Below the pieces are notes generated by a model. That model worked only from the letters and a program-made list of their open reading frames with translations, did no database searches and was not told the origin of the DNA. From a virus: 47,240 bases of DNA. A program made the translations under genes and the position numbers. Positions 4,561 to 26,102 of the stretch are shown one piece after another (position 1 is the first letter of the stretch; every line of letters begins with the position of its first letter). The stretch lies in IMG/VR virus record IMGVR_UViG_3300047550_003785, positions 1 to 47,240 of that record, one strand, 5' to 3'.

Positions 4561-4582
4561 TACCGATTAGAAAGGAAAGTTT

Positions 4583-5160: not shown

Positions 5161-5161
5161 A

Positions 5162-6933: not shown

Positions 6934-7446
6934 ATGAATCAGGAAAAATTTATAAGTTCTTATATTGATTTACTTAATTCTACCTTAACAGAAGCTATAC
7001 AAAAAAACTTGACAGTTCTTGCTCAAAGAAATGTTTTTGAGCAAGAACTAAATGAGATTAAATCAAATGTAAATAATGAATCAAAATCTTTAAAAGATAC
7101 TTTGTCTCAAAGAGATAAAGAAATAAATGAATTGAAATCTCAACTAAATGATGCTAGACGCCAAAAAGATGTTGCAACTGGTGAAACAAATGAATTGAAG
7201 AAAAATGTTCAACACGTTGAAACTTTCAAAAGCGAACTCGTCAAAGCTAGAAGCGAAATAGACAGACTTAATAATCAATTACAAGAAAAAGAAAAAGTAA
7301 TCGATTCTCTTAATAATGAAAACAAAAATCTTCTTGAAAAAATTTCCAAAAAAGAAGAAGATGTCAAATCTATAAAAAAGCCCGTCAGAAAAAATACGGA
7401 GCAACTCGTAGAAACAGTAATTGTTAAGGACGCAGGCAGCTTTTAA
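6934..7446 (+). CDS. Coiled-coil protein, 170 aa, C-terminal GSF
   Basis: From about residue 25 to 150 the protein is almost entirely charged and heptad-like, with stretches such as [19 protein letters not shown] and [20 protein letters not shown]. This indicates a long alpha-helical coiled coil. It ends in KDAGSF, close to the GGTF endings of the two genes before it. Its stop overlaps the start of the collagen fibre (TAATG at 7444-7448). No family is recognised. The coupling to the fibre and the rod-like shape would suit a connector or an assembly chaperone, but this is inference. Confidence 0.6.
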
Positions 7447-10400
7447 TGTCAAACACAGTAATTCAAATAAAGAAAACCGGAGCAACAGGTAATACACCTG
7501 ATGCCAACTCACTTTTACCTGGTGAGTTGGCTATCAACTATGCTGACGGCAAACTTTTCTATAAAGATGATGCTAATGTAGTACAGGCGATCTATCTACA
7601 AAACCTGTATGAAACAATAAACGTCAATGGTACACTTTTAATACCAACTTCAATCACAGACATTCTTAATTTTCAATCAGGCAATGGCATAAGTCTGACG
7701 GCAAATTCAATAACAGAAACTATTTACATTGATGAAACATTATCACCAATAATTAATGCGGTATTTGCTTTTGCTAATACAAGATATAGTTCGAATGGTG
7801 GTACAATTTATGGCAGCACAACAATAACTGGTAATCTTGTTGTTGATACGACCGCAAATGCAGTTTCAATCACGACTGAAAATAGTTATTCCGACAAATT
7901 TATAGCAAACAGTGTTGTTGCAAACACTGGCGTTATTGGAAATGCTCTAGTATCCAATACAAGTATCTTTGCAAATACAATTATTGCAAACACTTCACTA
8001 TCAGTTTTGGGACCATCAACAATTTCTGGTAATTTAGTTACAAATTATTTGTCAGTAAATAATGATGTAATTATTTCTGGTAATTTAACCGTACTCGGTA
8101 ATACACTTACAGTTAATACACAAACCCTCTCAATTGACGATTCGTTAATTTCTCTTGCAAAAAATAACACCACTGATGTGGTTGATATTGGTTTTTATGG
8201 GCACTATGCAAACACTCCAAATCTTCATACTGGTTTAGTTAGACATGCAACGGATAAAATCTATTATCTTTTTGATAATCTACAGACAGAACCGTCTTCT
8301 ACAATTGATGTTGCAAACGCTACAATTGCAACGATCAATGCAAACGTAATTTCTACAAGCATTACACTAAGAGGGTTTGATCCTCTTGCGCATGCTAATG
8401 GTGCTTTTAATAAAGCAAACGCAGCATACGATTATGCTAACAACATTTCATTGACACCTGGCCCAACTGGACCACAGGGACCACAAGGTAACATAGGACC
8501 AACTGGACCTACTGGACCAACTGGTGCTCAAGGTGATACTGGCCCAACTGGACCACAGGGACCACAAGGTAACATAGGACCAACTGGACCTACTGGACCA
8601 ACTGGTGCTCAAGGTGATACTGGCCCAACTGGACCACAAGGTCCAATAGGTCCAATAGGACCATCAGGCCCAACAGGACCACAGGGACCACAGGGAGATA
8701 TTGGTCCAACAGGACCTCAAGGTCCAATCGGTCCAATAGGACCATCAGGTCCAACAGGACCTATTGGACCAACAGGACCACAGGGACCACAGGGAGATAT
8801 TGGTCCAACAGGACCTCAAGGTCCAATCGGTCCAATAGGACCATCAGGTCCAACAGGTCCTACTGGACCCATAGCCGGTTCAAATCAACAAATTATTTAC
8901 AATAATAATGGTTCACCTGGTGCATCGGCAAATTTAACATGGGATGGGACAATATTACGTGCAACTCAACTTATAGTAACAAATTCTGCTGGTGATGAAG
9001 GTGGAGAAATATTACTAGCGAAACCTGTGTCCAATGTAACATTAAGTGGTACTGGTATTACTATTGATGCTTATCAAAATAAAATAAGATTTTTTGAGCA
9101 GGGTGGTAATGCAAGAGGTGTATATATTGACTTGACAGAAGCAGCTAATGGAGCTTCGACAAATTTATTGGCAGGTGGAGCAACCGGACCAACTGGGCCA
9201 CAAGGTCCAATTGGACCATCGGGTCCAACAGGACCACAGGGACCGATAGGTCCCATTGGTCCAATAGGTCCAAGTGGGCCAACAGGACCGCAAGGACCGA
9301 TAGGTCCCATTGGTCCATCGGGTCCACAAGGTCCAATAGGACCATCAGGCCCAACAGGACCACAAGGTCCAATAGGACCATCAGGCCCAACAGGACCACA
9401 GGGACCTCAAGGTGATATTGGTCCATCGGGTCCACAAGGTCCAATAGGACCATCAGGTCCAACAGGACCACAAGGGCCGATAGGTCCCATTGGTCCATCG
9501 GGTCCACAAGGTCCAATCGGACCATCAGGTCCAACAGGACCACAGGGTCCAATAGGACCAATTGGACCAATCGGACCATCGGGTCCAACAGGACCACAGG
9601 GACCGATAGGTCCCATTGGTCCAATAGGTCCAAGTGGGCCAACAGGACCACAGGGACCAATAGGACCAATCGGTCCAATAGGACCATCAGGACCAACTGG
9701 TCCACAAGGTCCAATAGGACCAATAGGACCAATCGGTCCAATAGGACCATCAGGCCCAACAGGACCACAGGGGCCTGCTGGACCAATCGGTCCAATAGGA
9801 CCATCAGGACCAACTGGTCCACAAGGTCCAATAGGACCAATAGGACCAATCGGTCCAATAGGACCATCAGGTCCACAAGGTCCAATAGGACCAATAGGAC
9901 CAATCGGTCCAATAGGACCATCAGGTCCACAAGGTCCAATAGGACCATCAGGTCCAACAGGACCACAGGGTCCAATAGGACCAATTGGACCAATTGGACC
10001 ATCAGGTCCAACAGGACCACAGGGTCCAATAGGACCAATTGGACCAATCGGACCATCAGGTCCAACAGGACCACAGGGTCCAATAGGACCAATAGGACCA
10101 ATTGGACCAATTGGACCATCAGGTCCAACAGGACCACAAGGACCGATAGGTCCCATTGGTCCAATAGGACCATCAGGTCCAACAGGACCACAGGGTCCAA
10201 TAGGACCAATTGGACCAATCGGACCATCAGGTCCAACAGGACCACAAGGACCTACAGGAGCAACATCATATTCAATTCCTGATACCGGCGCTGCTCCTCG
10301 ATATATACTTTTAGGTACGTGGTCAACTGCTCAGTCTGGGCAAACACTTTTAATTGATATTGTTGCACATGCAGGTTACAATGCAGATACAACTCAAAAT

Positions 10401-11612
10401 CAATACACTAAATTATATTTTAAAACATCAAACGGTTCTTCAAACGTTGGCGGTTTTTATGGTGACGGATTAGCAACAAGATTTACAACTCTTGGTACTA
10501 ATAGTTCTTCACCTAGTACAATAAGAGTGATACAAAATTCAACAACAAGTTATGAAATTTATGGAAATTTTGGCACTTACACCAATGGTTCAACATATCA
10601 AGTTCAGACAGGTAGTGGAACAACCTGGACACATTCAGGAACTATATATATTGGTACACCAACAGGAACATATATTGATATCACGCCGGCAACGGCAATA
10701 GGTCCAACTGGTCCAACTGGTCCACAAGGACCCATTGGTCCAATCGGTCCAATTGGTCCAATAGGTCCAATCGGACCATCAGGACCAACTGGTCCACAAG
10801 GACCCATTGGTCCAATAGGTCCAATAGGTCCAATAGGTCCAATCGGACCATCAGGACCATCAGGACCACAGGGTCCAATAGGACCAATCGGACCAATCGG
10901 ACCATCAGGACCACAGGGTCCAATAGGACCAATCGGACCAATCGGTCCAATCGGACCATCAGGACCACAGGGTCCAATAGGTCCAATCGGACCAATCGGT
11001 CCAATCGGACCATCAGGACCACAGGGTCCAATAGGACCAATAGGACCAATCGGTCCAATAGGACCATCAGGTCCAACAGGACCACAGGGTCCAATAGGAC
11101 CAATAGGACCAATCGGTCCAATAGGACCATCAGGTCCAACAGGACCACAGGGTCCTGCTGGACCATCAACAACTATAAACGCAACAGATGATACAACAAC
11201 TGCTGCAAATCATTACCCCGTTTTTGTAGCCGCAGTTGGTTCAAATCAAACAGCCGAAGCTTCAAGCACAAAATTATATTTTAATCCAAGCACAGGAACT
11301 TTAAACGCTACCATCTTCAATTCTCTTTCGGATAAAAACAAAAAAGAGAACATTCAAACTATTGAAAATTCACTAAATAAAATTTTAGGAATGAGAGGTG
11401 TCAGCTTTAATTGGATAGACACAAAACAAAAATCAATTGGTATAATTGCACAAGAAGTCGAAGAAATTATACCAGAGATAGTGTCTACAAATGAAAATGG
11501 CACCAAATCAATTTCTTATGACAGCGTTATTGGTTTACTGATAGAAGCAATTAAAGAGCAACAAAAACAAATAGATAATTTAACTGAGACAGTAAGGAGA
11601 TTAGACAAATGA
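7446..11612 (+). CDS. Collagen-like tail fibre with three Gly-Pro-X stalks and C-terminal Peptidase_S74 domain
   Basis: Domains in order: an N-terminal fibre domain ([33 protein letters not shown]); a beta-rich shaft; collagen-like block 1 (8460-8873); a globular insert (8874-9185); block 2 (9186-10262); a second insert of about 145 residues containing [20 protein letters not shown] and [11 protein letters not shown], a type seen as a fibre head domain; block 3 (10701-11168); a knob; and an S74 chaperone domain. The S74 motif is [10 protein letters not shown]: the cleavage Ser (11328-11330) and the Lys at +5 (11343-11345) are kept, while the usual Arg at +3 is Asn. Knob and S74 are clearly related to those of the first fibre. 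The final tail is a coiled coil. This is a long, probably trimeric adhesin. Confidence 0.88.
8460..8873 (+). repeat. Collagen-like repeat block 1
   Basis: Triplets of Gly-Pro-Thr, Gly-Pro-Gln and Gly-Pro-Ile with GAQGDTGPT and GDIGPT variants. The first about 170 bases are duplicated nearly exactly (8460-8553 versus 8551-8640). Confidence 0.85.
9186..10262 (+). repeat. Collagen-like repeat block 2 (longest)
   Basis: About 360 residues of Gly-Pro-X with the module [15 protein letters not shown] repeated in many length variants. Y positions are mainly Ile, Ser, Thr and Gln, with one GPAGPI. Both inserts that flank the block are non-collagenous. Confidence 0.9.
10701..11168 (+). repeat. Collagen-like repeat block 3
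   Basis: This is the same Gly-Pro-Ile/Ser/Thr/Gln triplet array, ending [12 protein letters not shown] just before the knob and S74 domain. Confidence 0.88.
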
Positions 11613-11948: not shown

Positions 11949-14900
11949 ATGCCAACCACTAATTTTAAAATCAGTTCAGGTTCCGATTTAGACGCTCTAT
12001 TTGAACCAATCGGGTCTGCATCAAAAAGGGCTGATGTAAGTTATCAAGTTACTGGGGCTGATATCTCCAACTATTACTATCCAGTCAGTGCTGGAGGTAC
12101 TGCTTTTGGTACCACCAACCTACAATCTAGTGGTGTGGATATAGGTACATTGTTTGCGGCAATTGGTACAGTTGTTTCATCTAAAGGTCCACTTTACCAA
12201 TGGGGAATTAATAGATATGGACAAATAGCATTTACAAGTGATACTTATAGTTGGACAATTGTATCAGCAAGAGGCAGTTATAATACCTTAGCAATTCGTT
12301 CAGATAATTTATTATTTGCTTGGGGGCGTAATCAAAATGGTTCACTAGGTGATGAAACAACCATACGTAGATTATCACCAGTACAAATAGGATCCAGTTC
12401 TTGGACAGCGGTGGCATCAGGTTCAAGACATACATTAGCCATTCGTTCGGATGGTATATTATTTACTTGGGGTCTAAATTCTTTAGGTGAATTAGGTGAT
12501 GGTACAACGGTTAATAAATCATCTCCTGTACAAATAGGATCCAGTTCTTGGACTGCTGTGGCCACTTCAACCGGCACACATTCAGTAGCCATTCGTTCGG
12601 ATGGTGCATTATTTACTTGGGGCGGTTCATCCTTTGGTCAATTAGGTGATGGTACAACGGTTAATAAATCATCTCCTGTACAAATAGGATCCAGTTCTTG
12701 GACAGCCATAACAGCCGGCACTTTTCATACAGCAGCCGTTCGTTCTGGTGGCACATTATTTACTTGGGGCCTAGGAAATTATGGGCGTTTAGGATTTGTT
12801 AACGATTCTTTGAGTTGGACAGTTGTATCGGCGGCTCCAGGTTCAATAAGCAGTCATACAGCAGCCATTCGTTCGGATGGTATTTTGTTTGCTTGGGGTA
12901 CTAATCAAGTTGGTCAATTAGGTGATGGTACAACGGTTAATAAATCATCTCCTGTACAAATAGGATCCAGTTCTTGGACAGCCGTATCAGTCGGAAATAG
13001 TCATACAGCAGCCATTCGTTCGGATGGTAGATTATTTACTTGGGGTCTAAATTCTTCAGGTCAATTAGGTGATAATTCATTGCTTAGTAAAACATCTCCT
13101 GTACAAATAGGATCCAGTTCTTGGACAGTCATTTTCAGTGGAGCTAGTCATACAGTAGCCATTCGTTCTGGTGGTACACTGTTCACTTGGGGTATAAATT
13201 CTTCAGGTCAATTAGGTGATAATTCAACGCTTAATAAATCATCTCCTGTACAAATAGGATCCAGTTCTTGGACAGCCATTTCGGGTGGAGGTTTTCATAC
13301 ACTGGCCATTCGTTCCGGAGGGACATTATTTAGTTGGGGGGCCGGAGCAAATGGTCGCCTTGGTGATAGTACAACGCTTAGTAAATCATCTCCTGTACAA
13401 ATAGGATCCAGTTCCTGGACGGCTGTGTCGGCCGGCAACTTTCATTCAGCAGCCATTCGTTCCGGTGGCACATTATTTGTTTGGGGTTCAAATGCTGTCG
13501 GGCAAACTGGTGATGGTACAGTTGTCACTAAGTCATCTCCAGTACAAATAGGTTCCAGTTCCTGGACGGCTGTGTCGGCCGGTCTCTCTGCTACAGCAGC
13601 CATTCGTTCTGATGGTGCATTATTCACTTGGGGTCAAGGAAATTATGGCCGACTTGGTAGTGGCACCACAACTAGCAGATCGTCTCCAGTACAAGTAGGA
13701 TCAAGTTCTTGGACAATTATAACAGTAGGTCCAACTCATACCGCAGCCATTCGTTCCGGTGGCACATTATTTGCTTGGGGTCTAAATGCTACAGGTCAAT
13801 TAGGTGATAATACAACGGTTAATAAATCATCTCCTGTTCAATTAGGCACTAATGAACCATTTAATGTAAGTTCTCCCACACAAGTGGGATTAAGTTCTTG
13901 GACTGCTGTGGCAGCAGGCGGGAACCATACAGCAGCTATTCGTTCTGGCGGCACATTATTTACTTGGGGTTTTAATAGTAATGGTCAACTTGGTGATGGC
14001 TCAGTTACTAACAAAAATTCTCCAGTACAAATAGGTTCCAGTTCTTGGAATGCTGTGGCAGCAGGGGACAGACACACAGCAGCTATTCGTTCTGGCGGCA
14101 CATTATTTATTTGGGGACAAGGAACATATGGTCAATTAGGTGATGGCTCATTTGCTAGTAAATCGTCTCCAGTACAAATAGGTTCCAGTTCCTGGACGGC
14201 TGTGTCAGCCGGGAGCACTCATACAGCGGGCATACTTTCTAATAATTTATTATTTCTTTGGGGGTCTTCATATCATGGTTCATTAGGATTTAATAATTTT
14301 TTAACTGTAACATCTCCAATACAATTAGGAAATAATCCTGCGGATCGATCATCTCCAGTACAAATAGGATTGAGTTCTTGGACAGTTGTATCAAACGGCG
14401 GCTCACATACGGCAGCCATTCGTTCCGATGGTATATTATTTACTTGGGGAATAGGCTCAAATGGTCGACTTGGTGATAACTCAGTTACTAGTAAATCGTC
14501 TCCAGTACAAATAGGATCCAGTTCTTGGACTGCCATATCAGCAGGATACGGACATACAGCAGCCATTCGTTCCGATGGTATATTATTTACTTGGGGTGCG
14601 GCCGCCTCCGGTCAATTAGGTGATGGCTCAATTACTAGTAAATCGTCTCCAGTACAAATAGGTTCCAGTTCTTGGACAGCCGTATCAGCAAGAAACCACA
14701 CAGCAGCCATTCGTTCTGGTGGCACATTATTTACTTGGGGTTTAAATAATTATGGTCAATTAGGTGATGGGACAACAGGTACAATTAATAACAAAAATTC
14801 TCCAGTACAAATAGGATCCAGTTCTTGGACAACCGTATCAGCAGGGGCCAGACACACAGCAGCTATTCGTTCTGGCGGCACATTATTTACTTGGGGCGGT

Positions 14901-15320
14901 GGATCCTATGGTCAATTAGGTGATGGTACAGCCGTTAATAAATCATCTCCAGTACAAATAGGTTCCAATTCTTGGACAGCCATATCAGCCAGCGATTTTC
15001 ATACAGCAGGCATTCAGACTGATCAATTATTATTTACTTGGGGTCTAAATATTTATGGTCAATTAGGTGATGGCTCAGTTGCTAGTAAATCGTCTCCAGT
15101 ACAAATAGGTTCCAGTTCTTGGACAGCCGTATCAGCAGGAGACGGACATACAGCAGCCATTCGTTCGGATGGTAGATTATTTACTTGGGGTCTAAATTTT
15201 TCAGGTCAATTAGGTGATAATACAACGGTTAATAAATCATCTCCTATACAAATAGGATCCAGTTCTTGGACAGTCATTTCCGCTAGAACTTTTTTTACAT
15301 CAGCTTTGAAAAAATCATGA
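11949..15320 (+). CDS. RCC1-type beta-propeller protein, about 21 blades, 1123 aa
   Basis: After an N-terminal segment of about 80 residues, the protein consists of units of about 51 residues with the RCC1 signature: HTAAIRSDGxLFTWGxNxxG, QLGDGTTVNKSSPVQIG, SSSWTAVSAG. I count 20 full units plus half a unit at each end (LYQWGINRYGQIAF at the start, SSSWTVISARTFFTSALKKS at the end). The two halves could close one ring. RCC1 domains form seven-bladed propellers, so about 21 blades would suit three rings. That is inference. Spacing is irregular after units 4, 11 and 14, where linkers are longer or shorter. No catalytic residues are visible. It is probably a virion adhesin or scaffold next to the fibres. 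Confidence 0.85.
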   Translation: MPTTNFKISSGSDLDALFEPIGSASKRADVSYQVTGADISNYYYPVSAGGTAFGTTNLQSSGVDIGTLFAAIGTVVSSKGPLYQWGINRYGQIAFTSDTYSWTIVSARGSYNTLAIRSDNLLFAWGRNQNGSLGDETTIRRLSPVQIGSSSWTAVASGSRHTLAIRSDGILFTWGLNSLGELGDGTTVNKSSPVQIGSSSWTAVATSTGTHSVAIRSDGALFTWGGSSFGQLGDGTTVNKSSPVQIGSSSWTAITAGTFHTAAVRSGGTLFTWGLGNYGRLGFVNDSLSWTVVSAAPGSISSHTAAIRSDGILFAWGTNQVGQLGDGTTVNKSSPVQIGSSSWTAVSVGNSHTAAIRSDGRLFTWGLNSSGQLGDNSLLSKTSPVQIGSSSWTVIFSGASHTVAIRSGGTLFTWGINSSGQLGDNSTLNKSSPVQIGSSSWTAISGGGFHTLAIRSGGTLFSWGAGANGRLGDSTTLSKSSPVQIGSSSWTAVSAGNFHSAAIRSGGTLFVWGSNAVGQTGDGTVVTKSSPVQIGSSSWTAVSAGLSATAAIRSDGALFTWGQGNYGRLGSGTTTSRSSPVQVGSSSWTIITVGPTHTAAIRSGGTLFAWGLNATGQLGDNTTVNKSSPVQLGTNEPFNVSSPTQVGLSSWTAVAAGGNHTAAIRSGGTLFTWGFNSNGQLGDGSVTNKNSPVQIGSSSWNAVAAGDRHTAAIRSGGTLFIWGQGTYGQLGDGSFASKSSPVQIGSSSWTAVSAGSTHTAGILSNNLLFLWGSSYHGSLGFNNFLTVTSPIQLGNNPADRSSPVQIGLSSWTVVSNGGSHTAAIRSDGILFTWGIGSNGRLGDNSVTSKSSPVQIGSSSWTAISAGYGHTAAIRSDGILFTWGAAASGQLGDGSITSKSSPVQIGSSSWTAVSARNHTAAIRSGGTLFTWGLNNYGQLGDGTTGTINNKNSPVQIGSSSWTTVSAGARHTAAIRSGGTLFTWGGGSYGQLGDGTAVNKSSPVQIGSNSWTAISASDFHTAGIQTDQLLFTWGLNIYGQLGDGSVASKSSPVQIGSSSWTAVSAGDGHTAAIRSDGRLFTWGLNFSGQLGDNTTVNKSSPIQIGSSSWTVISARTFFTSALKKS
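12190..15290 (+). repeat. RCC1 tandem DNA repeats (about 150-bp period)
   Basis: The string caaataggatccagttcttg and close variants recur about every 150 bases across the gene. Copies differ mostly at third codon positions and in the short loops between strands. Confidence 0.85.
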
Positions 15321-15344: not shown

Positions 15345-16376
15345 ATGCATTTGATAGATCAACAACTTAATTTAATGATACGTGGGCGTTTTGAAGAAGG
15401 ATGGAAATTAGCAGAGCAAATGGAAGCTAATGATCCTGATGATCCCAGAGCTAAGTTTAATAGGGGATGGTTTTTAATTAATCAAGGCAATCTTCAAGAT
15501 GGTTTTAAATGTCTTGAATATGGGCGCCCACTGAAAGTTTATGGCTCAGGAAAAATTAATACAACAAAAACAATTTGGAATGGGCAAGACGATCTAACGG
15601 ATAAAACAGTTATTCTCAATATGGAATGTGGTTATGGTGATCAAATCATCTATGCAAGGTTTGCAACAGAAGTGTGGAAAAAAGGAGGTAAAGCAATACT
15701 TTGTTGTGATAAATCTTTGCATTCTTTATTTTCTAGGATTCCCGGAACACATAAGTGTATAACATTAGATGAAGTGTCCTCTACATATCATGACTATTGG
15801 ATTCCAGGGTTCAGTTGTAGCTGGTTATTCGGGCATACTTTTGAAACATTACCAAAACAACCTTTCATTTTTGCAAAACAAGAAAGCATTGATGTTTGGA
15901 AAACAATTTTAAATACAAAAAAGAAAATAAAAATAGGCATTCGTTGGAGCGGAAGCCCATTATTTGAACATCAACAATTTCGTATATTTCCTCCCGAAAA
16001 ATTAATTAATCTTTATAAAGACAACGATCATATACAGTTTTATAGTCTGCAAAGAGATACGGATGTGAGGGAATTACCTGTTGAAATTTCTGATCTGCAA
16101 CATTTAATAATTTCTTGGGAAGACACTGTTGCATGTATCGAAAATCTCGACTTGGTAATAAGTTCCTGTACAAGTATAGCACATTTATCAGCAGCCATGG
16201 GAAAACCAACTTGGGTCATAGTGCCTATTTTACCTTACCATGTTTGGGCATATGGCGATAGACATAGCCCATGGTATGAAGATACTACAAAGGTATTCAG
16301 ACAAAAGAAGTTTGCCAAATGGGATGAAACGTTTGAAGAGGTTTCACAAGAACTTAAAAAACTTTTTCCAAAATAA
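15345..16376 (+). CDS. TPR-containing glycosyltransferase, heptosyltransferase (GT9/GT41)-like
   Basis: Residues 1-60 form TPR-like helices (GRFEEGWKLAEQMEANDPDD, KFNRGWFLINQGNLQDGFKC). The rest is a GT-B type transferase: NMECGYGDQIIYARF in the N-lobe, KIGIRWSGSPLFEHQQFR at the domain switch, and a donor-site region DLVISSCTSIAHLSAAMGKP followed by the HSPWYEDT...FRQKKFAKW ending. This is typical of TPR-linked family 9/41-like enzymes. I chose the ATG at 15345 because GGAG lies five bases before it; a TTG at 15321, right after the preceding stop, is in frame but has no site. With ADP-heptose genes downstream, a heptosyl donor is plausible. It directly follows the RCC1 gene. The acceptor is unknown. 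Confidence 0.78.
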   Translation: MHLIDQQLNLMIRGRFEEGWKLAEQMEANDPDDPRAKFNRGWFLINQGNLQDGFKCLEYGRPLKVYGSGKINTTKTIWNGQDDLTDKTVILNMECGYGDQIIYARFATEVWKKGGKAILCCDKSLHSLFSRIPGTHKCITLDEVSSTYHDYWIPGFSCSWLFGHTFETLPKQPFIFAKQESIDVWKTILNTKKKIKIGIRWSGSPLFEHQQFRIFPPEKLINLYKDNDHIQFYSLQRDTDVRELPVEISDLQHLIISWEDTVACIENLDLVISSCTSIAHLSAAMGKPTWVIVPILPYHVWAYGDRHSPWYEDTTKVFRQKKFAKWDETFEEVSQELKKLFPK

Positions 16377-16390: not shown

Positions 16391-16426
16391 GTTTATATTA
16401 CTATATGATTTTTAAATGGAGTGATC

Positions 16427-17227
16427 ATGAAAAAAGAAAATTTATATTTTATTGCTGGCTTACCTAGAGCAGGTTCAACTTTAATTACCAATATATTAAA
16501 ACAAAATCCAAAAATACATGGTGAATCTGTCAGTTCACTTGCTTCAATAATTGGAACTGTTAATGCTAGTTGGTCTAATTTTGATGCCAATAAAGAGTAT
16601 AGAAATGATCAAGCAAAAGTTGGTGTTTTAAAATCTATACTTGAAGGTTATTATTCTCATATTGACAAATCAATAGTTTTTGATAAAGATAGGGGATGGG
16701 TTCCTTTAATTGGGCTTATTGAAGCTATCACACAACAACAAGTCAAAATGATTATTTGTGTCAGAAATCCTGCTGAAATATTGACTTCATTTGAAAGATT
16801 GAGAAAAGACAATCCTTTGTTCTTTACAAATGTTGATGCTAATCTAAGAGAAGGATCTAATATATCTTCAAGAGCATATTATTATGCTGGTCCTGATGGT
16901 GCATTAGGGTTAAGCCATAGGAATATAAGAGATGCTATTGTAATGGGTTATCTTGACCGATTTTTGTTCATAGATTATAACAGATTTTGCAATAGCCCAA
17001 AATCTCAGACTAAAAGAATTTATGATTTTTTTGAATTACCAGATTTTCAGCATGATTTTTCCAAAATAGAACAAACTGAAAACTACAATGATCTTGCAGT
17101 TGGTTTACCAAACCTTCACAAAGTTAAACCAACACTCGAAAAAACCACGGTAAATTGTGTAGAATATCTAGGGTTGGATTTATACGATCAATATAATCGT
17201 GAAATTTTTTGGAATGCATGGATATAA
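16427..17227 (+). CDS. Sulfotransferase family protein (first copy)
   Basis: The N-terminal AGLPRAGSTLI (about residues 10-20) is the 5'-phosphosulfate binding loop that PAPS-dependent sulfotransferases use. IICVRNPAEILTSFERLRKD is the matching 3'-phosphate motif. The length of 266 residues is normal for the family. The start is ATG 16427, five bases after GGAG; the GTG at 16421 overlaps that site and is less likely. It would transfer sulfate from PAPS to a sugar or protein hydroxyl. The donor could come from the APS kinase at 31922. It opens the sugar cassette. Substrate unknown. Confidence 0.82.
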   Translation: MKKENLYFIAGLPRAGSTLITNILKQNPKIHGESVSSLASIIGTVNASWSNFDANKEYRNDQAKVGVLKSILEGYYSHIDKSIVFDKDRGWVPLIGLIEAITQQQVKMIICVRNPAEILTSFERLRKDNPLFFTNVDANLREGSNISSRAYYYAGPDGALGLSHRNIRDAIVMGYLDRFLFIDYNRFCNSPKSQTKRIYDFFELPDFQHDFSKIEQTENYNDLAVGLPNLHKVKPTLEKTTVNCVEYLGLDLYDQYNREIFWNAWI

Positions 17228-17249: not shown

Positions 17250-17870
17250 ATGGATTTAATTGTACCAGAACATACAAAATTAAATATGGGTTGTGGATTT
17301 AAAAAACTTGATGACCATTGGAATGTTGATATCGAAAAAAGATGTAACCCAGATCAAGTATTAGATTTCGAAGTTACTCCTTGGCCTTATGAAGATAATT
17401 TTTTTGATAAGATCAATGCAGACAATATTCTTGAACATCTAGGGCAAGATCCAAAAGTGTTCACAAAGATTATTAAAGAAATGTACCGAGTTAGTAAAGA
17501 TCAAGCAGAATGGTTTATCAATGTTCCACACCATCGGTGTGATCTATATTGGGATGATTACACTCATGTAAGACCTCTCTCAGCAAAAACATTTAGAATG
17601 TTTGATCAAAAGGTAAATTTTGAATCTATCGAAAAAAATCTTAGCGATAGTACCTTTGGTTTATATAATAGTGTGGATCTGGAAGTCTATGATAGTACAC
17701 TTAACTTCGTTAATTACTGGTTACAGCAGCAAGATGAAGGAATGTTAGGTGCTAAACAACTTATGATTAATTTGAATACAATGTCTAATGTTGTTGAAAG
17801 TGTAAACATCTTTATTCGGGTACATAAACCTGGGCGATTTGAAGATTGGTTCAATAAGTATCAAAAATGA
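17250..17870 (+). CDS. Class I SAM-dependent methyltransferase
   Basis: KLNMGCGFKKLDDHWNVDIE matches motif I of class I methyltransferases, with the acidic residue ending strand 2 in VDIE. DKINADNILEHLGQDPKVFT and MYRVSKDQAEWFINVPHH match the later core motifs, as in small methyltransferases found in polysaccharide loci. It ends in an ATGA overlap with the FkbM-type gene. It probably methylates a sugar or other small acceptor during glycan assembly; the specificity cannot be read. Confidence 0.75.
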   Translation: MDLIVPEHTKLNMGCGFKKLDDHWNVDIEKRCNPDQVLDFEVTPWPYEDNFFDKINADNILEHLGQDPKVFTKIIKEMYRVSKDQAEWFINVPHHRCDLYWDDYTHVRPLSAKTFRMFDQKVNFESIEKNLSDSTFGLYNSVDLEVYDSTLNFVNYWLQQQDEGMLGAKQLMINLNTMSNVVESVNIFIRVHKPGRFEDWFNKYQK

Positions 17871-18604
17871 TATTCAATATTGGTGATAAAGTACACAGAA
17901 ATGTTTTGCTAAGTTGTGACCATGGGTTGATGATTGTAAACAGATTTGATTGCAATCATGAACAAGTTGGTCATGGGCAATGGCTTTTGGATCACGGAAA
18001 CACTTCAACAATAGAAGCTGCAAATTGTTATAGTTTATTAAAAGAGTTGCCAGAACCTATAATTTTTGACATTGGTGCAAATATAGGAACGTTCACAACT
18101 TGGATGGCAAGAGCATTTCCAAACGGTAAAGTCCATTCGTTCGAACCACAAAGAGCAGTCTTTCAAATGCTATCAGGTAACGCAGCAATTAACAATCTAT
18201 ATAATGTATACACATACAATATGGCTTTAGGTAAAGAAAATGCAAAGATTGAGTTTGAAGAACCGAATTATTTCGAAAAGAATGACTATGGAACTTTCAG
18301 TCTAGTTGAAAACATCATTCAACAAAAAACAAAAAATTTAATTACGGTAGAAATAAAGACTCTTGATACATTTTTAGAATACTATAATATACCAAAAGTT
18401 GATTTGCTAAAGATAGATGTGGAAGGAATGGATCTAGATGTGCTAATTGGTGGGCATAAAACAATAAAAAAATATTTGCCAATAATTTTTATTGAACATT
18501 CTGACAATAGAAAATCAATTCTAGAAGAGATTAAAGAGTTTTTGAACAATTTCGATTATGGTTATACCATAATAGGTAATAATGTTTTATGTAGGCCATT
18601 ATGA
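17867..18604 (+). CDS. FkbM family methyltransferase
   Basis: IIFDIGANIGTFTTWMARAF is the FkbM-type SAM motif, followed by KVHSFEPQRAVFQMLSGN and, late in the protein, the family hallmark VDLLKIDVEGMDLDVLIGG. The length of 245 residues is normal. Its start overlaps the previous stop (ATGA) and its stop overlaps the next start (ATGA at 18601). FkbM enzymes are usually O-methyltransferases acting on sugars or polyketides and are frequent in surface-glycan loci. Confidence 0.88.
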   Translation: MIFNIGDKVHRNVLLSCDHGLMIVNRFDCNHEQVGHGQWLLDHGNTSTIEAANCYSLLKELPEPIIFDIGANIGTFTTWMARAFPNGKVHSFEPQRAVFQMLSGNAAINNLYNVYTYNMALGKENAKIEFEEPNYFEKNDYGTFSLVENIIQQKTKNLITVEIKTLDTFLEYYNIPKVDLLKIDVEGMDLDVLIGGHKTIKKYLPIIFIEHSDNRKSILEEIKEFLNNFDYGYTIIGNNVLCRPL

Positions 18605-19414: not shown

Positions 19415-19948
19415 ATGCATGATGAACAGTTTGAATATGTAAAAAGTGTCAGAGAAAAACATCCTTTTTATTTTCTGAATAAAAAAGTCCTTGAAATAGG
19501 GAGCTTAAATATTAATGGAACCATAAGAGTTCTCTTTGAAAATTGTGACTATTTTGGTATAGATGTTGGACCAGGTAAAGATGTAGATTGCGTTTGTTTG
19601 GGCCATGAATTTAATAAGCCAGACAATTTCTATGATGTAGTCATTTCATGTGAAACATTAGAACATGATCCGCATTGGAAACTAACCTTTAAAAATATGA
19701 TTAGACTATGTAAACCAGGTGGTATTGTTATTATGACTTGTGCAACCACAGGTAGAAAAGAACATGGAACTTTGGCATTCGAACCTCAAAGTTCTCCGAA
19801 TACAGTAAAATTAGGATGGAATCATTATAAAAACTTAACCGAATCCGAGCTAATGGAAGATAACGATATAGATGAACTTTTTTATTTTTATTATTTTGAA
19901 ACAAACAAAAGTTCTTGCGATTTATATTTTTATGGCATAAAATGTTAA
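19415..19948 (+). CDS. Class I SAM-dependent methyltransferase (Methyltransf_11-like)
   Basis: KKVLEIGSLNINGTIRVLF is motif I, YFGIDVGPGKDVDCVC carries the strand-2 acidic residue, and FYDVVISCETLEHDPHWKLT with LCKPGGIVIMTCATTG are the typical later motifs. At 177 residues it is a minimal catalytic domain. It is the third methyltransferase of the cassette. Its end overlaps the start of the nucleotidyltransferase by seven bases. Confidence 0.8.
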   Translation: MHDEQFEYVKSVREKHPFYFLNKKVLEIGSLNINGTIRVLFENCDYFGIDVGPGKDVDCVCLGHEFNKPDNFYDVVISCETLEHDPHWKLTFKNMIRLCKPGGIVIMTCATTGRKEHGTLAFEPQSSPNTVKLGWNHYKNLTESELMEDNDIDELFYFYYFETNKSSCDLYFYGIKC

Positions 19949-20355
19949 AAGTTTTTGTTAACGGTACATTTGACGTTTTACACCCTGGGCACATTAATTT
20001 GTTTCAAAATGCAAAAAGTAAAGGTGATTTTTTATTTGTTGCAATAGATTCGGATAATAGAGTTTCACATTTAAAAGGTATAGATAGGCCCTTCAACACT
20101 CAAGAAAATCGAAAATATATATTAGAAAGTATAAAATACATTGATAAAGTTATCATATTTAATGATGACGATCAATTAAAATACTTGATAAAAGATTACC
20201 AACCTGATATAATGATGGTAGGTTCTGATTGGAAAGGTAAAAATATTATTGGTTCTGAATATGCAAAACAACTTATTTTCTTTGATAGAGACAGCCGTTA
20301 CTCAACAACAAAAATCCTTGAAAGTTTTATTAATAGGAGACAGTTGCATAGATGA
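19942..20355 (+). CDS. HldE C-terminal-like heptose-1-phosphate nucleotidyltransferase
   Basis: VFVNGTFDVLHPGHINLFQN contains the nucleotidyltransferase HxGH motif. RPFNTQENRKYILESIKYID, MMVGSDWKGKNIIGSEYA and the late RYSTTKILESF fit the pattern of the HldE (RfaE) adenylyltransferase domain, which makes ADP-D-glycero-beta-D-manno-heptose. Related TagD-type glycerol-phosphate cytidylyltransferases share several of these motifs, so the substrate call rests on the neighbours: an HldE-type kinase next and an HldD-type epimerase two genes on. The ATG at 19942 gives 137 residues; an in-frame TTG at 19915 is inside the previous gene and less likely. Confidence 0.75.
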   Translation: MLKVFVNGTFDVLHPGHINLFQNAKSKGDFLFVAIDSDNRVSHLKGIDRPFNTQENRKYILESIKYIDKVIIFNDDDQLKYLIKDYQPDIMMVGSDWKGKNIIGSEYAKQLIFFDRDSRYSTTKILESFINRRQLHR

Positions 20356-21046
20356 ATATCAATACGGCATTTGCAATAGATTAAGCCCAGAAGTACCAGT
20401 CCCTATACTCGATTTAAAAAGAATTGAACAGAAAAATGGTATGGCTAGCAATGTCAAAGATAATTTGGAAAGTCTAGGCGCACATGTAGTTTCTTTCCTC
20501 AGTAAAAATTCTAAAAAAATTCGTTATATTGATGAGAAATCTAATTATCATTTATTAAGAATAGATAATGATGTAAAGTCTGAGCCATTAAAAATCAACA
20601 CAGATTTTCCTAAAAATATAGATGCAATTGTCATATCAGATTATAACAAAGGTTTTGTTTCTTATGGACTAATCGAAGAGTTAATAAAGAAATACAAAAA
20701 GATTCCCATTTATATTGATACAAAGAAGCAAGACTTGCAAAAGTTTAATGGTTGTTTTGTTAAGATAAATGAATCGGAATACAACAACAGGATCTCAGAT
20801 ACACAAAATCTAATTGTTACATTTGGTGGTTCGCATGTTAAGTTTAAAGATAAAATATATACAGTGCCGAGAGTAAAAGCATTTGATCCATGTGGTGCAG
20901 GTGATACTTTCTTGGCGTCATTTGTTTTCTGCCATCTACTAACAAAAAATATAGACGTTGCAATAGAATTTGCAATTAGAGCATCGACTATTACAGTTCA
21001 ACACATCGGAACGTATAGCCCAAAATTAGAGGAAATATTATGTTAA
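20261..21046 (+). CDS. HldE N-terminal-like (PfkB family) heptose-7-phosphate kinase
   Basis: VLLIGDSCIDEYQYG, then NRLSPEVPVPILDL, closely follows the opening of HldE/RfaE kinase domains. AIVISDYNKGFVSYGL matches its middle, and DPCGAGDTFLASFVFCHLL contains the PfkB GAGD catalytic motif. The protein is about 260 residues against roughly 315 for the usual domain, and the region after NGMASNVKDNLESLGAHV is shortened. The start is uncertain: ATG 20261 or TTG 20318, neither with a clear ribosome site. The kinase frame is +1 relative to the nucleotidyltransferase and overlaps its end, so the same DNA encodes ILESFINR and LKVLLIGD. Confidence 0.8.
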   Translation: MQNNLFSLIETAVTQQQKSLKVLLIGDSCIDEYQYGICNRLSPEVPVPILDLKRIEQKNGMASNVKDNLESLGAHVVSFLSKNSKKIRYIDEKSNYHLLRIDNDVKSEPLKINTDFPKNIDAIVISDYNKGFVSYGLIEELIKKYKKIPIYIDTKKQDLQKFNGCFVKINESEYNNRISDTQNLIVTFGGSHVKFKDKIYTVPRVKAFDPCGAGDTFLASFVFCHLLTKNIDVAIEFAIRASTITVQHIGTYSPKLEEILC

Positions 21047-21387
21047 CAGTTGAAAAAGGATGGGGGCACGAATTAATTTGGGCAAACAACGAGAAATATT
21101 GTGGTAAGTTTCTCAATTTTAAAACTGGTTCAAAATTCAGCATGCATTTTCATGCAGAAAAGGATGAGACATGGTATGTTCTAAGTGGAGAATTCATCGT
21201 GGAATGGATCAATACGAAAGATGCAACTCGTGATTCTCGTATACTAAAAGCTGGTGATGTATGGAGGAATGAACCCTTATTTCCACACCAATTAATATGC
21301 GAAAAAGAAGGTTCTATTATTGAAGTAAGCACGAAAGATAATTGCGATGACAATTATAGAGTGCTGCCAGGAGACAGTCAGAAATGA
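21040..21387 (+). CDS. Cupin domain protein (sugar isomerase-like)
   Basis: This is a single cupin: GWGHELIWANNEKYCGKF, then SMHFHAEKDETWYVLSGEF with the metal-binding HxH...E pattern, then a second motif with LFPHQLICEKEGSIIEVS. It resembles the cupin part of type II mannose-6-phosphate isomerases. It lies between the heptose kinase and the epimerase, overlapping both by a few bases, so it most likely acts on a sugar intermediate of this pathway. Whether it is an isomerase, an epimerase or only a binding protein is not shown. Confidence 0.72.
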   Translation: MLTVEKGWGHELIWANNEKYCGKFLNFKTGSKFSMHFHAEKDETWYVLSGEFIVEWINTKDATRDSRILKAGDVWRNEPLFPHQLICEKEGSIIEVSTKDNCDDNYRVLPGDSQK

Positions 21388-22169
21388 TTCTAGTTACAGG
21401 GCATAAAGGATTTATCGGTTCTCACCTCTACAGGCACATTTTAAATTCTGGTATAAAAGTTCGTGGTTTTGATTGGGGTGACACACTGAATTTGGATGGT
21501 GTAAAAACCGTCATGCATCTAGGAGGCATTTCGTCCACAACAGAAAAGAATGTGGAAAAAATAATGCATCAAAATTATGATTTTAGTGTTGATCTTTTAG
21601 AAACTTGTATCGAAAGGCGTATTCATTTTCAATATTCATCTTCTGCTTCATTATATGGAAAAAATACTTTGTTCGCAGAGGATTCACCGGTTGATCCTCA
21701 AACACCATATGCATGGTCAAAGTACATGTTTGAGAGATACGCAACAAGAAAGGAATCCAATATATTAATACAAGGATTCAGATATTTTAACGTTTGGGCT
21801 GAGACAGGGGAGGGGCATAAGGGCAACCAATGCAGCCCTTATTTTAAATTCGCTAAAGAAGCTAAAGAAAATAATACCATAACACTTTTTCAAAACAGTG
21901 AAAATTGTAAAAGAGACTTTATACATGTCGATCAAATAGTAAAATATCATTTAAAATTCTTAGAAGTCAAAGAAAGTGGTATCTGGAACTTAGGTACTGG
22001 TGTTGCCAAATCTTTTTTAGATGTTGCAAATGAGATATCAAAGAATTACTATAACTGTGAGTATAAATTTATACCAATGCCCGAAAATTTAAAAGATTCA
22101 TACCAATATTATACCTGCGCAGACATGAAAAAGACAGAATCGACACTAAAAAAGTGGAAATTATTATGA
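21384..22169 (+). CDS. ADP-L-glycero-D-manno-heptose 6-epimerase-like (HldD/RfaD)
   Basis: MILVTGHKGFIGSHLYRHIL is the NAD(P) Rossmann motif of the extended SDR family. The catalytic YxxxK is in TPYAWSKYMFERYA. The HldD-specific stretches are clear: GGISSTTEKN, GFRYFNVWAETGEGHKGNQ, then LFQNSENCKRDFIHVDQIV, ESGIWNLGTGVAKSF and FIPMPENLKDSYQYYTCADM. At 261 residues it is shorter than the usual ~310. It would convert ADP-D-glycero- to ADP-L-glycero-heptose, completing nucleotide-heptose synthesis with the two HldE-like genes upstream. It ends the cassette; a promoter-like region follows. Confidence 0.88.
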   Translation: MILVTGHKGFIGSHLYRHILNSGIKVRGFDWGDTLNLDGVKTVMHLGGISSTTEKNVEKIMHQNYDFSVDLLETCIERRIHFQYSSSASLYGKNTLFAEDSPVDPQTPYAWSKYMFERYATRKESNILIQGFRYFNVWAETGEGHKGNQCSPYFKFAKEAKENNTITLFQNSENCKRDFIHVDQIVKYHLKFLEVKESGIWNLGTGVAKSFLDVANEISKNYYNCEYKFIPMPENLKDSYQYYTCADMKKTESTLKKWKLL

Positions 22170-22221: not shown

Positions 22222-23193
22222 ATGTCATTTAAAATCAACAAAAATGTTGTAGTCGATACCGATAGAAACGCTTATTTATCTGGTGCGACACTAGATAATT
22301 ATGTTACTTTAGGAAACCCATTTCAAGGTTCTTCCGCAGGGTTTTCTTCTGGAGGATATGCTTTCCCATCTCCATTTACAAACGTAATAGATAAATTTCC
22401 TTTTGCAACAAATGCAAATGCAACTGATGTTGGTGATTTGACTGTAAGTAGGATATATGTAACAGGACAATCATCAACAATTTCAGGATATACATCAGGT
22501 GGTTTGGCTCCTCCTTACTCAAATGTTATTGATAAATTTCCTTTTGCATCTAATGCTAATGCTACTGATGTAGGAGATTTAACTGTTTCAAGGCAAAGTG
22601 CTGCTGGGCAATCTTCTGTTGTATCTGGTTATTCATCTGGAGGATTTTCTGATTCAATTCCAACCTTTGTTCATAACGTAATAGATAAATTTCCATTTGC
22701 TACAAATATAAATGCTGCTGACGTTGGCGATTTAACGGTGGCAAGAGACCAACCTGCTGGGCAATCATCTTCAATATCCGGTTATTCATCTGGAGGATTT
22801 ACACCTTCAGCATCAAACGTAATAGATAAATTTTCTTTTTCGACAGACGCAAATGCAACAGACGTAGGAGATTTAACTGTTGCGAGATCAAGCTGTGGGC
22901 AATCATCTTCAATATCCGGTTATTCATCTGGAGGATTTACACCTTCATATTCAAACATAATAGATAAGTTTACTTTTGCGGCAAATGCTAATGCTGCTGA
23001 TGTTGGTGATTTAACTGTTGCTAGATCACAGGTAGCAGGACAATCATCTTCAGTTTCCGGATATACTTCTGGAGGAAGTACACCTTCTTCATCAAACGTA
23101 ATAGATAAATTTCCTTTTGCAACCGATGCTAATGCAACTGATGTAGGAGATTTAACGGTAGCAAGATTTGGTCTTGCTGGTCAACAAATTTAG
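22222..23193 (+). CDS. Six-repeat Kelch-like propeller protein 1
   Basis: A short N-terminal anchor (INKNVVVDTDRNAYLSGATL) precedes six repeats of about 48 residues. The core is SGYTSGG, a variable loop, SNVIDKFPFATNANATDVGD, LTVAR, three to four variable residues, GQSS. The glycine pair before the loop and the conserved aromatic and Arg positions fit Kelch blades, and six copies would make one six-bladed ring. It ends FGLAGQQI, the tail common to all six paralogues here. The protein has no signal peptide or enzyme motif. It is likely a receptor-binding or fibre-tip protein; the Kelch call is by pattern only. Confidence 0.7.
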   Translation: MSFKINKNVVVDTDRNAYLSGATLDNYVTLGNPFQGSSAGFSSGGYAFPSPFTNVIDKFPFATNANATDVGDLTVSRIYVTGQSSTISGYTSGGLAPPYSNVIDKFPFASNANATDVGDLTVSRQSAAGQSSVVSGYSSGGFSDSIPTFVHNVIDKFPFATNINAADVGDLTVARDQPAGQSSSISGYSSGGFTPSASNVIDKFSFSTDANATDVGDLTVARSSCGQSSSISGYSSGGFTPSYSNIIDKFTFAANANAADVGDLTVARSQVAGQSSSVSGYTSGGSTPSSSNVIDKFPFATDANATDVGDLTVARFGLAGQQI

Positions 23194-23200
23194 GTAAAAA

Positions 23201-24223
23201 ATGCCACTTAAAACTAAAAGTATAATTTTTGCAGACAATACAACATTAAGCAGTTCTTTTGCTAATGTTTTTATTACAGGCACCGACTCTTTCTTAAAAG
23301 TTGGTGGTTCTTTGCAAGGAGAAATATCAGGTTACACCTCTGGTGGCTATATTCCAGCATTACCTACTGTTTCAAATGTAATTGATAAATTTCCTTTCTC
23401 TACCAATTCAAATGCGAGCACCGTTGGTAATTTAACAGTTAGGAGGCTGGGTTCTGCTGGGCAATCTTCTACAGTTTCAGGTTATAATTCAGGAGGATTA
23501 GCACCACCAAGCGCGCCATCACCAATAGTATCGAATGTAGTAGATAAATTTCCTTTTGCAGCAAATGCAAATGCAACTGATGTTGGTGACTTAACAGTTG
23601 CAAGATACTATGTATCTGGGCAATCATCAACGGTTTCAGGATACACATCAGGAGGAACATCTCCTTATTCAAATGTGATTGATAAATTTCCTTTTGCGAC
23701 GGATGCAAACGCAACAGATGTTGGTGATTTGACTTTGGCTAGAGCAGAAAGTGCTGGGCAATCGTCTGTTGTTTCTGGTTATACATCAGGAGGATATTCA
23801 TTTCCACCAAGTTCTTACTATAATGTAATAGATAAATTTCCATTTTCTACAAACGCAAACGCAACAGATGTTGGTGATTTGGTTTTATCAAGATATGGAA
23901 TGGCCGGACAATCTTCTTCTATTTCCGGTTATACTTCTAGCGGTACAGATGGCAGCACATCTTTAAATATAATTGATAAATTTCCTTTTGCAGCAAATGC
24001 AAATGCAACTGATGTTGGTGATTTATCAGTGGTGCGATACCGAACAACGGGGCAATCTTCTGTTGTCTCTGGTTATAATTCTGGTGGAACTCAACCGTTT
24101 CCATTCAATCCTTTCACTAGCTATAATATAATAGACAAATTTCCTTTTGCTGTAGACGCAAATGCAACTGATGTTGGTGACTTAACAGTTGCAAGATATA
24201 GCCCTGCTGGACAACAGGTATAA
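23201..24223 (+). CDS. Six-repeat Kelch-like propeller protein 2
   Basis: It has the same architecture as the preceding gene, eight bases away. The N-terminus (LKTKSIIFADNTTLSSSF) differs; six repeats follow. Loops between SGG and the VIDKF strand vary in length and content: YIPALPTVS, LAPPSAPSPIVS, TSPYS, YSFPPSSYY, TDGSTSL (after a Ser-Gly variant) and TQPFPFNPFTSY. The end is YSPAGQQV. Variation concentrated in loops with a constant strand core suggests a fixed scaffold carrying different binding surfaces. Confidence 0.7.
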   Translation: MPLKTKSIIFADNTTLSSSFANVFITGTDSFLKVGGSLQGEISGYTSGGYIPALPTVSNVIDKFPFSTNSNASTVGNLTVRRLGSAGQSSTVSGYNSGGLAPPSAPSPIVSNVVDKFPFAANANATDVGDLTVARYYVSGQSSTVSGYTSGGTSPYSNVIDKFPFATDANATDVGDLTLARAESAGQSSVVSGYTSGGYSFPPSSYYNVIDKFPFSTNANATDVGDLVLSRYGMAGQSSSISGYTSSGTDGSTSLNIIDKFPFAANANATDVGDLSVVRYRTTGQSSVVSGYNSGGTQPFPFNPFTSYNIIDKFPFAVDANATDVGDLTVARYSPAGQQV

Positions 24224-24227
24224 AAAA

Positions 24228-25232
24228 ATGACATACAAATTAAGTAAATTTTCATTTATATCTTCAGCAACTAAACTGACAAGCACAGGCATGTCCTCTG
24301 CAAGCAATGAAACTGGAGTAAATCAAGCTTTTATTGAAATTTCGAATGTTTTAGGTGGAAAAATATCTGGTTATACGTCAGGAGGCCAAACTTCCGGATT
24401 TATAAATTCAAACGTAATAGATAAATTTCCTTTTTCGACAGATGCCAATGCAACAGACGTTGGAGATTTAACTGTTGCTAGATCACAGGTAGCAGGCCAG
24501 TCTTCATCAATTTCGGGATACACATCAGGCGGTCCTTTGTCAAATGTAATTGATAAATTTCCTTTTGCAATAAATGCAAATGCTACTGATGTTGGTGATT
24601 TGACTGTTGCAAGAAACGGCGTAGCCGGTCAATTTTCTACAGTATCCGGTTATACAACAGGAGGTTACGTACCTCCAAATATAAGATCAAACGTAATAGA
24701 TAAATTTCCTTTTGCTACAGATAGAAATGCTGCTGACGTTGGAGATTTAACTGTTGGTAGAAGCATTTTGGGAGGTGGTCAATCATCAACAATTTCAGGA
24801 TACACATCAGGCGGTTTTGCTCCTCCTTTCTCAAATGTAATTGATAAATTTCCTTTTTCGACAGATGCCAATGCAACTGATGTAGGAGATTTAACTATTG
24901 CTAGATATGGTATAGCTGGACAATCATCTTCAATATACGGTTATTCATCCGGAGGATTTACTGGATCTAATTCAAACGTAATAGATAAATTTCCTTTTGC
25001 AATAAATGCAAATGCTACTGATGTTGGTGATTTAACCTTTGCTAGTGCTAGAAGAGAACCGGCCGGACAATCATCTATAGTTTCCGGATATACATCAGGA
25101 GGTGCGAATGAAAATTATTCTCCTTCGATTTTAAATATAATAGATAAATTTCCTTTTGCAACCGATGCTAATGCAACTGATGTAGGTGATCTAACAGTGG
25201 TTAGATATGAATCGGCCGGTCAACAATATTAA
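24228..25232 (+). CDS. Six-repeat Kelch-like propeller protein 3
   Basis: The start is ATG 24228, four bases after the previous stop; an in-frame TTG at 24189 lies inside that gene and is rejected. The anchor is longer (LSKFSFISSATKLTSTGMSS), followed by six repeats ending YESAGQQY. Repeat 5 to 6 has a small insertion (FASARREPAGQSS). It closes the first block of three paralogues and is followed by the second sulfotransferase. Confidence 0.7.
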   Translation: MTYKLSKFSFISSATKLTSTGMSSASNETGVNQAFIEISNVLGGKISGYTSGGQTSGFINSNVIDKFPFSTDANATDVGDLTVARSQVAGQSSSISGYTSGGPLSNVIDKFPFAINANATDVGDLTVARNGVAGQFSTVSGYTTGGYVPPNIRSNVIDKFPFATDRNAADVGDLTVGRSILGGGQSSTISGYTSGGFAPPFSNVIDKFPFSTDANATDVGDLTIARYGIAGQSSSIYGYSSGGFTGSNSNVIDKFPFAINANATDVGDLTFASARREPAGQSSIVSGYTSGGANENYSPSILNIIDKFPFATDANATDVGDLTVVRYESAGQQY

Positions 25233-25252
25233 TTTTTTAACTATGGTGAATT

Positions 25253-26092: not shown

Positions 26093-26102
26093 AAGGTGAA
26101 TG

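Follow-up and report, generated by a model that had tools for sequence, protein, structure and literature searches.

A TPR glycosyltransferase encoded beside an RCC1-repeat gene in a virus read as T4-like, with a probable role in glycosylation of the phage's own fibre

The RCC1–glycosyltransferase locus

The DNA analysed here (the window) is an IMG/VR virus record of 47,240 bases. A terminase, sheath, portal, protease, scaffold and capsid proteins are encoded further along it, and from these structural genes we read the virus as T4-like. An ORF for an RCC1-repeat protein (11949–15320) is followed by a gap of 24 nt and then by the ATG, at position 15345, of a 343-residue glycosyltransferase (GT); the gap carries a GGAG motif that ends 5 nt before this ATG. 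A sequence-only reading of the same DNA had placed a TPR glycosyltransferase directly after an RCC1 gene, and both the placement and the identity of the neighbour are borne out, the latter by its Pfam match. The features that bear on the locus are as follows.

11949–15320, plus strand: RCC1-repeat protein, 1123 residues, about 22 repeats; putative acceptor and putative fibre or adhesin (Pfam RCC1 E 7.8e-205, WD40_RLD E 3.1e-232; linkage to the GT)
15345–16376, plus strand: TPR glycosyltransferase, 343 residues (ORF, AlphaFold model, structure comparison)
15351–15533, plus strand: N-terminal TPR part, residues 3–63, four helices (secondary structure of the model; profile matches to TPR structures)
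15597–16373, plus strand: GT-B domain of the GT9 type, residues 85–343 (VIA-align Z 18.2 to 3tov, 17.9 to WaaF, 16.4 to WaaC, 16.2 to TibC)
15639–15641, plus strand: codon of Asp99, candidate catalytic base (invariant in 71 homologues; weak alignment to WaaF Asp13)
16421–17227, plus strand: sulfotransferase, likely start 16427 (Pfam Sulfotransfer_3 E 1.4e-12; fused to the GT in loci L053, L098, L099 and L102)
17250–17870, plus strand: class I methyltransferase (Methyltransf_11 just under cut-off; GT-fused in many relatives)
17867–18604, plus strand: FkbM-type methyltransferase (Pfam E 5.3e-25)
19942–20355, plus strand: nucleotidyltransferase resembling the HldE C-terminal part, ADP-heptose pathway (NCBIfam rfaE_dom_II E 1.2e-32, under its cut-off)
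20249–21046, plus strand: PfkB protein resembling the HldE kinase, true start uncertain (NCBIfam rfaE_dom_I E 4.4e-37, under its cut-off)
21384–22169, plus strand: HldD-like ADP-heptose 6-epimerase (NCBIfam heptose_epim E 4.8e-61, under its cut-off)
31922–32776, plus strand: APS-kinase-like and NMNAT-like nucleotidyltransferase protein, possible PAPS supply (Pfam APS_kinase 26.5 bits, cut-off 21.1; KTI12 scores similarly)

Several other genes of the window deserve mention in their own right. The segment 19942–22169, with its split HldE-like kinase and adenylyltransferase, a cupin and the HldD-like epimerase, amounts to a partial ADP-heptose pathway in a phage. A collagen-like fibre is encoded at 7446–11612 (Pfam Collagen, Peptidase_S74 chaperone) and a 2OG-Fe(II) oxygenase at 26100–27386; it is conceivable that the oxygenase acts as a prolyl hydroxylase on the collagen-like Gly-Pro repeats. 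Six similar repeat-protein genes, which we name kelch-like, occupy 22222–31881, and a second sulfotransferase gene (25253–26092) lies among them.

Taken alone, the GT matches nothing in Pfam at E ≤ 0.01 or in NCBIfam at E ≤ 0.001. Its best Pfam scores, to TPR_16 (E 0.034) and Glyco_transf_9 (E 0.039), are both under cut-off, the second at 13.7 bits against a gathering score of 22 bits; 8 of 71 family members match Glyco_transf_9 at E ≤ 0.01. A profile of the 71 sequences matches TPR proteins over residues ~11–60, the TPR of O-GlcNAc transferase (OGT) included, and an AlphaFold model built with 70 homologues (pLDDT 95.3, pTM 0.92) has four N-terminal helices, residues 3–63, that form two TPR motifs ahead of the GT-B domain. 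Profile, model and structure match thus agree on one protein with an N-terminal TPR part and a C-terminal GT-B domain. On structure comparison the modelled domain has a GT9-type GT-B fold: it matches 3tov, WaaF and WaaC with the Z scores listed above over 232–246 residues at an rmsd of 2.8–3.2, and residues 70–343 align with TibC, a protein heptosyltransferase. The earlier call of an N-terminal TPR and a heptosyltransferase-type GT-B domain is therefore confirmed at family level, with the qualification that the TPR is a minimal one of two motifs. The reason then given for a protein acceptor, an acceptor-binding TPR like that of OGT, is weakened, an OGT-like peptide groove being rejected on the two motifs of the model. 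Membership of the BAHT (TibC) class was rejected as well: the N-terminal beta-barrel is absent, and the model has four helices there. Residues E94, G96, G98, D99, R105, R213, D269, T276, W301, Y311 and W326 are invariant in the 71 sequences, and Asp99, which aligns weakly with WaaF Asp13 (hhalign probability 13%), is on these grounds a candidate catalytic base.

Linkage to RCC1 in phages and bacterial MAGs

Close relatives were collected in two viral scans, the second giving the best 80 of at least 557 relatives, and RCC1 was called with our own HMM, built from 47 repeats of four of these systems. The scans yielded 91 loci, of which 81 distinct contigs were counted; repeats (L017, L027, L045, L046, L047 and L088) and loci with the GT cut by the contig end (L008, L011, L054 and L092) were left out. 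Among the matches listed, RCC1 directly precedes the GT on the same strand in 75 of the 81 contigs and lies somewhere in the locus in 80, with a median RCC1–GT gap of 44 nt, although it makes up only 8.6% of the genes called in the same loci. After collapsing these GTs at 70% identity, RCC1 is next door in 21 of 23 clusters and in the locus in all 23. These counts come from scans that favour close relatives and from contigs many of which are fragmentary. A GT without RCC1 (L063) sits on a 9.4 kb fragment behind a repeat protein that matches DUF6242.

Proteins from S-SRM01 and AG-345, 26% and 32% identical to the window GT respectively, served as seeds for two further, more distant phage groups. 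Of the 47 loci of the S-SRM01 group, 44 had a called GT; RCC1 adjoins it in 42, and the other 2 begin with the GT; the genes that escaped calling (L217–L219) are partial, though RCC1 is next door there too. In the AG-345 group RCC1 is present in every locus (13/13) and next door in none, two genes, mostly 2OG oxygenases, standing between it and the GT. In L287–L289, found through their sulfotransferase, RCC1 lies several genes downstream, not upstream. The GT matched 6 of 50,697 INPHARED records, representing 5 distinct phages: BUCT-ZZ01, S-SRM01 and AG-345-E08 carry RCC1 beside or near the GT, podovirus MW202512 has a GT match but no RCC1 in its record, and a Rhizobium phage with a partial GT match has no RCC1 annotated nearby. 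BUCT-ZZ01 and S-SRM01 are isolates, and the RCC1 protein of S-SRM01 is a single propeller. The podovirus enzyme (MW202512.1), which falls outside the RCC1 group, is encoded a few genes after the major capsid gene and is followed by an FkbM methyltransferase; capsid glycosylation is a possible role for it.

The association is also specific to one part of the enzyme family. In a tree of 51 enzymes a branch with 100/100 support splits 35 rows labelled RCC1-linked from 16 unlinked ones; 34 of the 35 are truly linked, L063 being the exception, and long branches may attract (S-SRM01 with the AG-345 group, L170 with the podovirus). Independently of our own HMM, Pfam RCC1 was found in 30 of 30 virus records of linked loci, hand-picked for variety rather than at random, and in 6 of 6 linked MAGs, one of them through a phage contig. 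The same model, shown by those MAGs to be able to detect RCC1, found none in 27 hand-picked genomes reached through unlinked TPR-GT loci (11 of them in the tree), none in five phage records with a podovirus-type TPR-GT (mostly fragments; four found by search plus the query's own record) and none in 14 control genomes. With the HldE-type kinase as control neighbour gene, RCC1 was present in 0 of 6 viral loci, a small control. The genomes behind L103–L172 are those of Azospirillum and relatives, with up to 28 TPR-GT matches each. By an eye count, a TPR-GT lies within ~10 kb of a flagellin-domain match in at least 11 of 27 genomes, a nearness that is suggestive only.

RCC1 and the GT also occur together in bacterial MAGs. 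There are five such loci in CPR or Bdellovibrionota MAGs: RCC1 directly precedes the GT in three of them (L098, L101 and L102), follows it at a distance of two genes in L100, and is ~3 kb away, at a contig end, in L099. The flanking genes of L101 read as ordinary metabolic ones, and the large-terminase family was unmatched in three of the five MAG genomes and weakly matched in the other two, although MAG contigs may be misbinned. A Bacteroidetes MAG contig (L097) was kept out of the bacterial count, since its neck-like and fibre genes, together with a terminase match, suggest a T4-like phage. The bacterial RCC1 protein of L100 (5808–8027) has, by eye, an N-terminal twin-arginine-like signal, with the GT near and a sulfotransferase adjoining.

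Tailoring genes accompany the pair. Of 46 viral clusters, 43 have a class I methyltransferase in the locus, 25 of them as a fusion with the GT, and 22 have a sulfotransferase; GT–sulfotransferase fusions occur in L053, L098 and L099. In L102, a Patescibacteria MAG, one ORF of 1349 residues (1649–5698) just after the RCC1 gene joins a sulfotransferase, a relative of the TPR-GT, a methyltransferase, TPRs and a GT41 domain (Glyco_transf_41 E 2.4e-62). GT41 is the protein-modifying O-GlcNAc-transferase family, so that this fusion points to protein acceptors. RCC1 and GT were in no case joined in one ORF among the loci examined for fusions. APS-kinase-like relatives are confined to clusters with a sulfotransferase (both in 7, sulfotransferase only in 14, neither in 25; Fisher p 0.002, uncorrected for relatedness), which suggests a supply of PAPS, and the window protein at 31922–32776 may provide it for the sulfotransferases. 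In L315 and L316 six clustered RCC1 genes are followed by a methyltransferase, a GT and a sulfotransferase.

The reverse relation is looser. RCC1 is often found without the GT, in 10 of 14 viral loci from a search with RCC1 as query (several of them short fragments) and in seven named phages. In phage PollyC the RCC1 gene, annotated 'tail fiber assembly', comes after the gene of an internal virion protein and before a small gene, the holin and the terminase genes, the place that the tail fibre has in T7-like phages. Mass spectrometry of phAPEC6 virions detected proteins named 'DNA condensation protein', according to the available part of PMC7247149, and we infer that these are the RCC1-like proteins described there. 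Taken together, these observations make RCC1 look like a generally used fibre module, and the one-sidedness of the relation makes the GT look like an enzyme that needs RCC1. The PHROGs category of phage RCC1 proteins is DNA, RNA and nucleotide metabolism, apparently an erroneous label taken over from eukaryotic RCC1; a DNA-related role is also suggested in the accessible text of PMC7247149. Two other literature matches to RCC1 were discarded, being strain names in an algal-virus paper (PMC12906663, as far as its available text goes) and gene numbers (PMC10218006).

The composition of the RCC1 protein was less informative. Its richness in Ser and Thr, offered by the sequence-only reading as a hint of glycosylation, is real (27.6%), but does not discriminate, because the six kelch-like proteins of the window reach 22–26%. 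GT-linked RCC1 repeats have 25% S+T (51 proteins) against 16% in seven unlinked phage RCC1 proteins (Mann-Whitney p 6.7e-5). We set this enrichment aside as evidence, because the repeats used to build the HMM were linked ones, the lineages are not the same, and the window has other repeat proteins with similar values. N-x-S/T sequons number 0.33–1.54 per repeat in linked and 0.25–0.67 in unlinked RCC1, and no repeat position in the column table holds a fixed Asn inside a sequon; N-linked (HMW1C-like) transfer to RCC1 is possible.

Acceptor, donor and competing readings

The GT is kept with the RCC1 fibre gene in nearly all the relatives identified, and the phage therefore probably decorates its own fibre. 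The reading we find best, and consider reasonably likely, is a dedicated glycosylation cassette for an RCC1 beta-propeller adhesin, with tailoring by the downstream enzymes. What the data establish is the order of the genes, the fold, the linkage, the co-occurrence and the fusions; acceptor, donor sugar, linkage chemistry, order of steps and location in the virion are what we infer in the following scheme. The GT would be a cytoplasmic GT9-fold enzyme dedicated to the RCC1 beta-propeller protein encoded just upstream. Its small TPR module would bind freshly synthesised RCC1 protein, and the GT-B domain would use a nucleotide-sugar, in this phage ADP-heptose or something similar, to glycosylate side chains of the propeller loops, most likely Ser or Thr, with Asn possible. 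The methyltransferase and sulfotransferase could then cap or sulfate the sugar. As the RCC1 protein is most likely the receptor-binding fibre, the virion would carry a decorated adhesin. Glycosylation of RCC1 in cis, as first proposed, has strong circumstantial backing from linkage, co-occurrence and fusions, whereas the TPR and Ser/Thr reasons originally given for it are weaker.

With regard to the donor, the genes at 19942–22169 have the HldE adenylyltransferase, the HldE kinase and HldD as best models, all under the equivalog cut-offs. Given these genes and the GT9 fold, ADP-heptose is the natural guess and a plausible donor in this phage. As a donor for the whole family it was rejected: within the flanks covered, only 10 of 46 viral clusters showed a nucleotidyltransferase of the HldE type, and although 9 of 13 related virus records match the HldD model (4 of them above 200 bits, 1 over cut-off), two large related records (232 and 244 kb) have no match to it.

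The main rival is that during infection the GT alters a glycan on the host surface (LPS or capsule), for instance to keep progeny off debris or to exclude other phages, and travels with RCC1 because this glycan is what the RCC1 fibre reads. Linkage alone cannot separate this from glycosylation of RCC1, for it too predicts linkage to a receptor-binding gene; moreover, LPS is the usual substrate of GT9 enzymes, the window has HldE/HldD-like genes further on, and T4-like cyanophages carry LPS gene clusters whose role is described as undefined in the available text of PMC3037559. We nevertheless regard it as unlikely. RCC1 and the GT are also together in CPR and Bdellovibrionota MAGs, in one case with a GT41 fusion, and it is this fusion and the bacterial copies that favour a protein acceptor over a host glycan. 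BUCT-ZZ01, in addition, keeps RCC1 and a GT–methyltransferase, and in the 21 kb shown no further gene is annotated with a sugar function, several products there being 'hypothetical'; and a TPR module is, to our knowledge, unusual among LPS GT9 enzymes.

Less probable still is that the GT glycosylates another virion protein, such as one of the collagen-like or kelch-like repeat proteins, or more than one fibre. In Ser and Thr content the kelch-like proteins come near RCC1, the second sulfotransferase lies beside them, the GT of L063 is paired with a different repeat protein, and the more distant podovirus TPR-GT lies close behind a capsid gene. It is RCC1, however, that is the steady neighbour in phages and bacterial MAGs alike, and many of the loci have no collagen-like gene close by. 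Hitch-hiking, with RCC1 and the sugar genes exchanged jointly at a tail-fibre hotspot as cargo of no common function, is very improbable: downstream sugar genes do differ greatly between relatives and the surrounding fibre genes shuffle, but the RCC1–GT adjacency survives these changing surroundings at GT identities of 44–87% and in a more distant group, and co-occurrence is near absolute in the sets examined. Lipid-linked sugars, the alternative named in the sequence-only reading, are a less likely acceptor.

We also propose, more tentatively than glycosylation of the RCC1 fibre itself and with the odds somewhat against it, a portable glyco-adhesin cassette consisting of an RCC1 propeller, a TPR-GT, a methyltransferase and often a sulfotransferase with an APS-kinase-like helper, which would be shared by tailed phages and attached-living CPR and Bdellovibrionota bacteria and yield sulfated or methylated adhesins. 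Part of the LPS-like sugar genes of T4-like aquatic phages would then serve self-decoration, not host modification. The use of such clusters in large cyanophages is left open in the accessible part of PMC3037559, possibly as 'stuffer DNA', and with a fixed enzyme–acceptor pair that question would in part become a testable claim about a single protein. Should RCC1 be glycosylated, sulfated or methylated glycans would be present on phage receptor-binding fibres, with consequences for host range and for receptor-binding predictions made as if fibres were unmodified protein. The DNA-related reading of phage RCC1 would then come into question too, both the PHROG category and the suggestion found in the available text of PMC7247149.

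Comparison with known systems

OGT and its family GT41 resemble the window enzyme in joining a TPR to a GT-B domain for protein glycosylation, and the relative in L102 has a GT41 domain as a fusion partner. OGT, however, has a long TPR superhelix and a GT-B domain of a different family, and matches the window GT only weakly in fold. The LPS heptosyltransferases WaaC and WaaF (GT9) are among the best fold matches, but are without a TPR and act on a lipid acceptor, and the window GT scores under the Pfam GT9 cut-off.

Among phages, Che8, Corndog and Myrna, mycobacteriophages studied by Freeman in 2023, reportedly encode glycosyltransferases that modify their own virion proteins. Mycobacteriophage virion glycosylation, with capsid and tail-tube targets, is cited in PMC12363180, the available text of which describes no RCC1, TPR, sulfotransferase or methyltransferase cassette. 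Neither a phage RCC1–GT link nor a fibre-glycosylation cassette of this kind was found among the literature matches listed, subscription papers being mostly outside their scope. Phage-encoded virion glycosylation is therefore already known, and what appears to be new is the target, RCC1, and the cassette.

Closer parallels come from bacteria. FlmG, the flagellin O-glycosyltransferase of Caulobacter, is soluble, and its TPR part binds flagellin and gives specificity (PMC7591256, in the portion available). Like the window GT it has an N-terminal TPR part and a C-terminal GT-B domain, a likeness taken from the description of FlmG in that portion, the proteobacterial TPR-GTs that we aligned being of undefined function. 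FlmG, though, has 596 residues, the first 313 with the TPR part, and transfers pseudaminic acid onto flagellin (same source and portion), whereas the window GT has 343 residues, two TPR motifs and an RCC1 neighbour. TibC, a bacterial autotransporter heptosyltransferase, decorates a repetitive adhesin, as the accessible text of PMC4358343 has it; it shares the GT9-like catalytic fold (Z 16.2), and an ADP-heptose donor is plausible for the window enzyme too. In place of the N-terminal beta-barrel of TibC, which the same text describes along with a thumb, an iron finger and a dodecamer, the window GT has its TPR module. FlmG and TibC are better models than OGT for an enzyme that probably glycosylates the RCC1 fibre encoded beside it.
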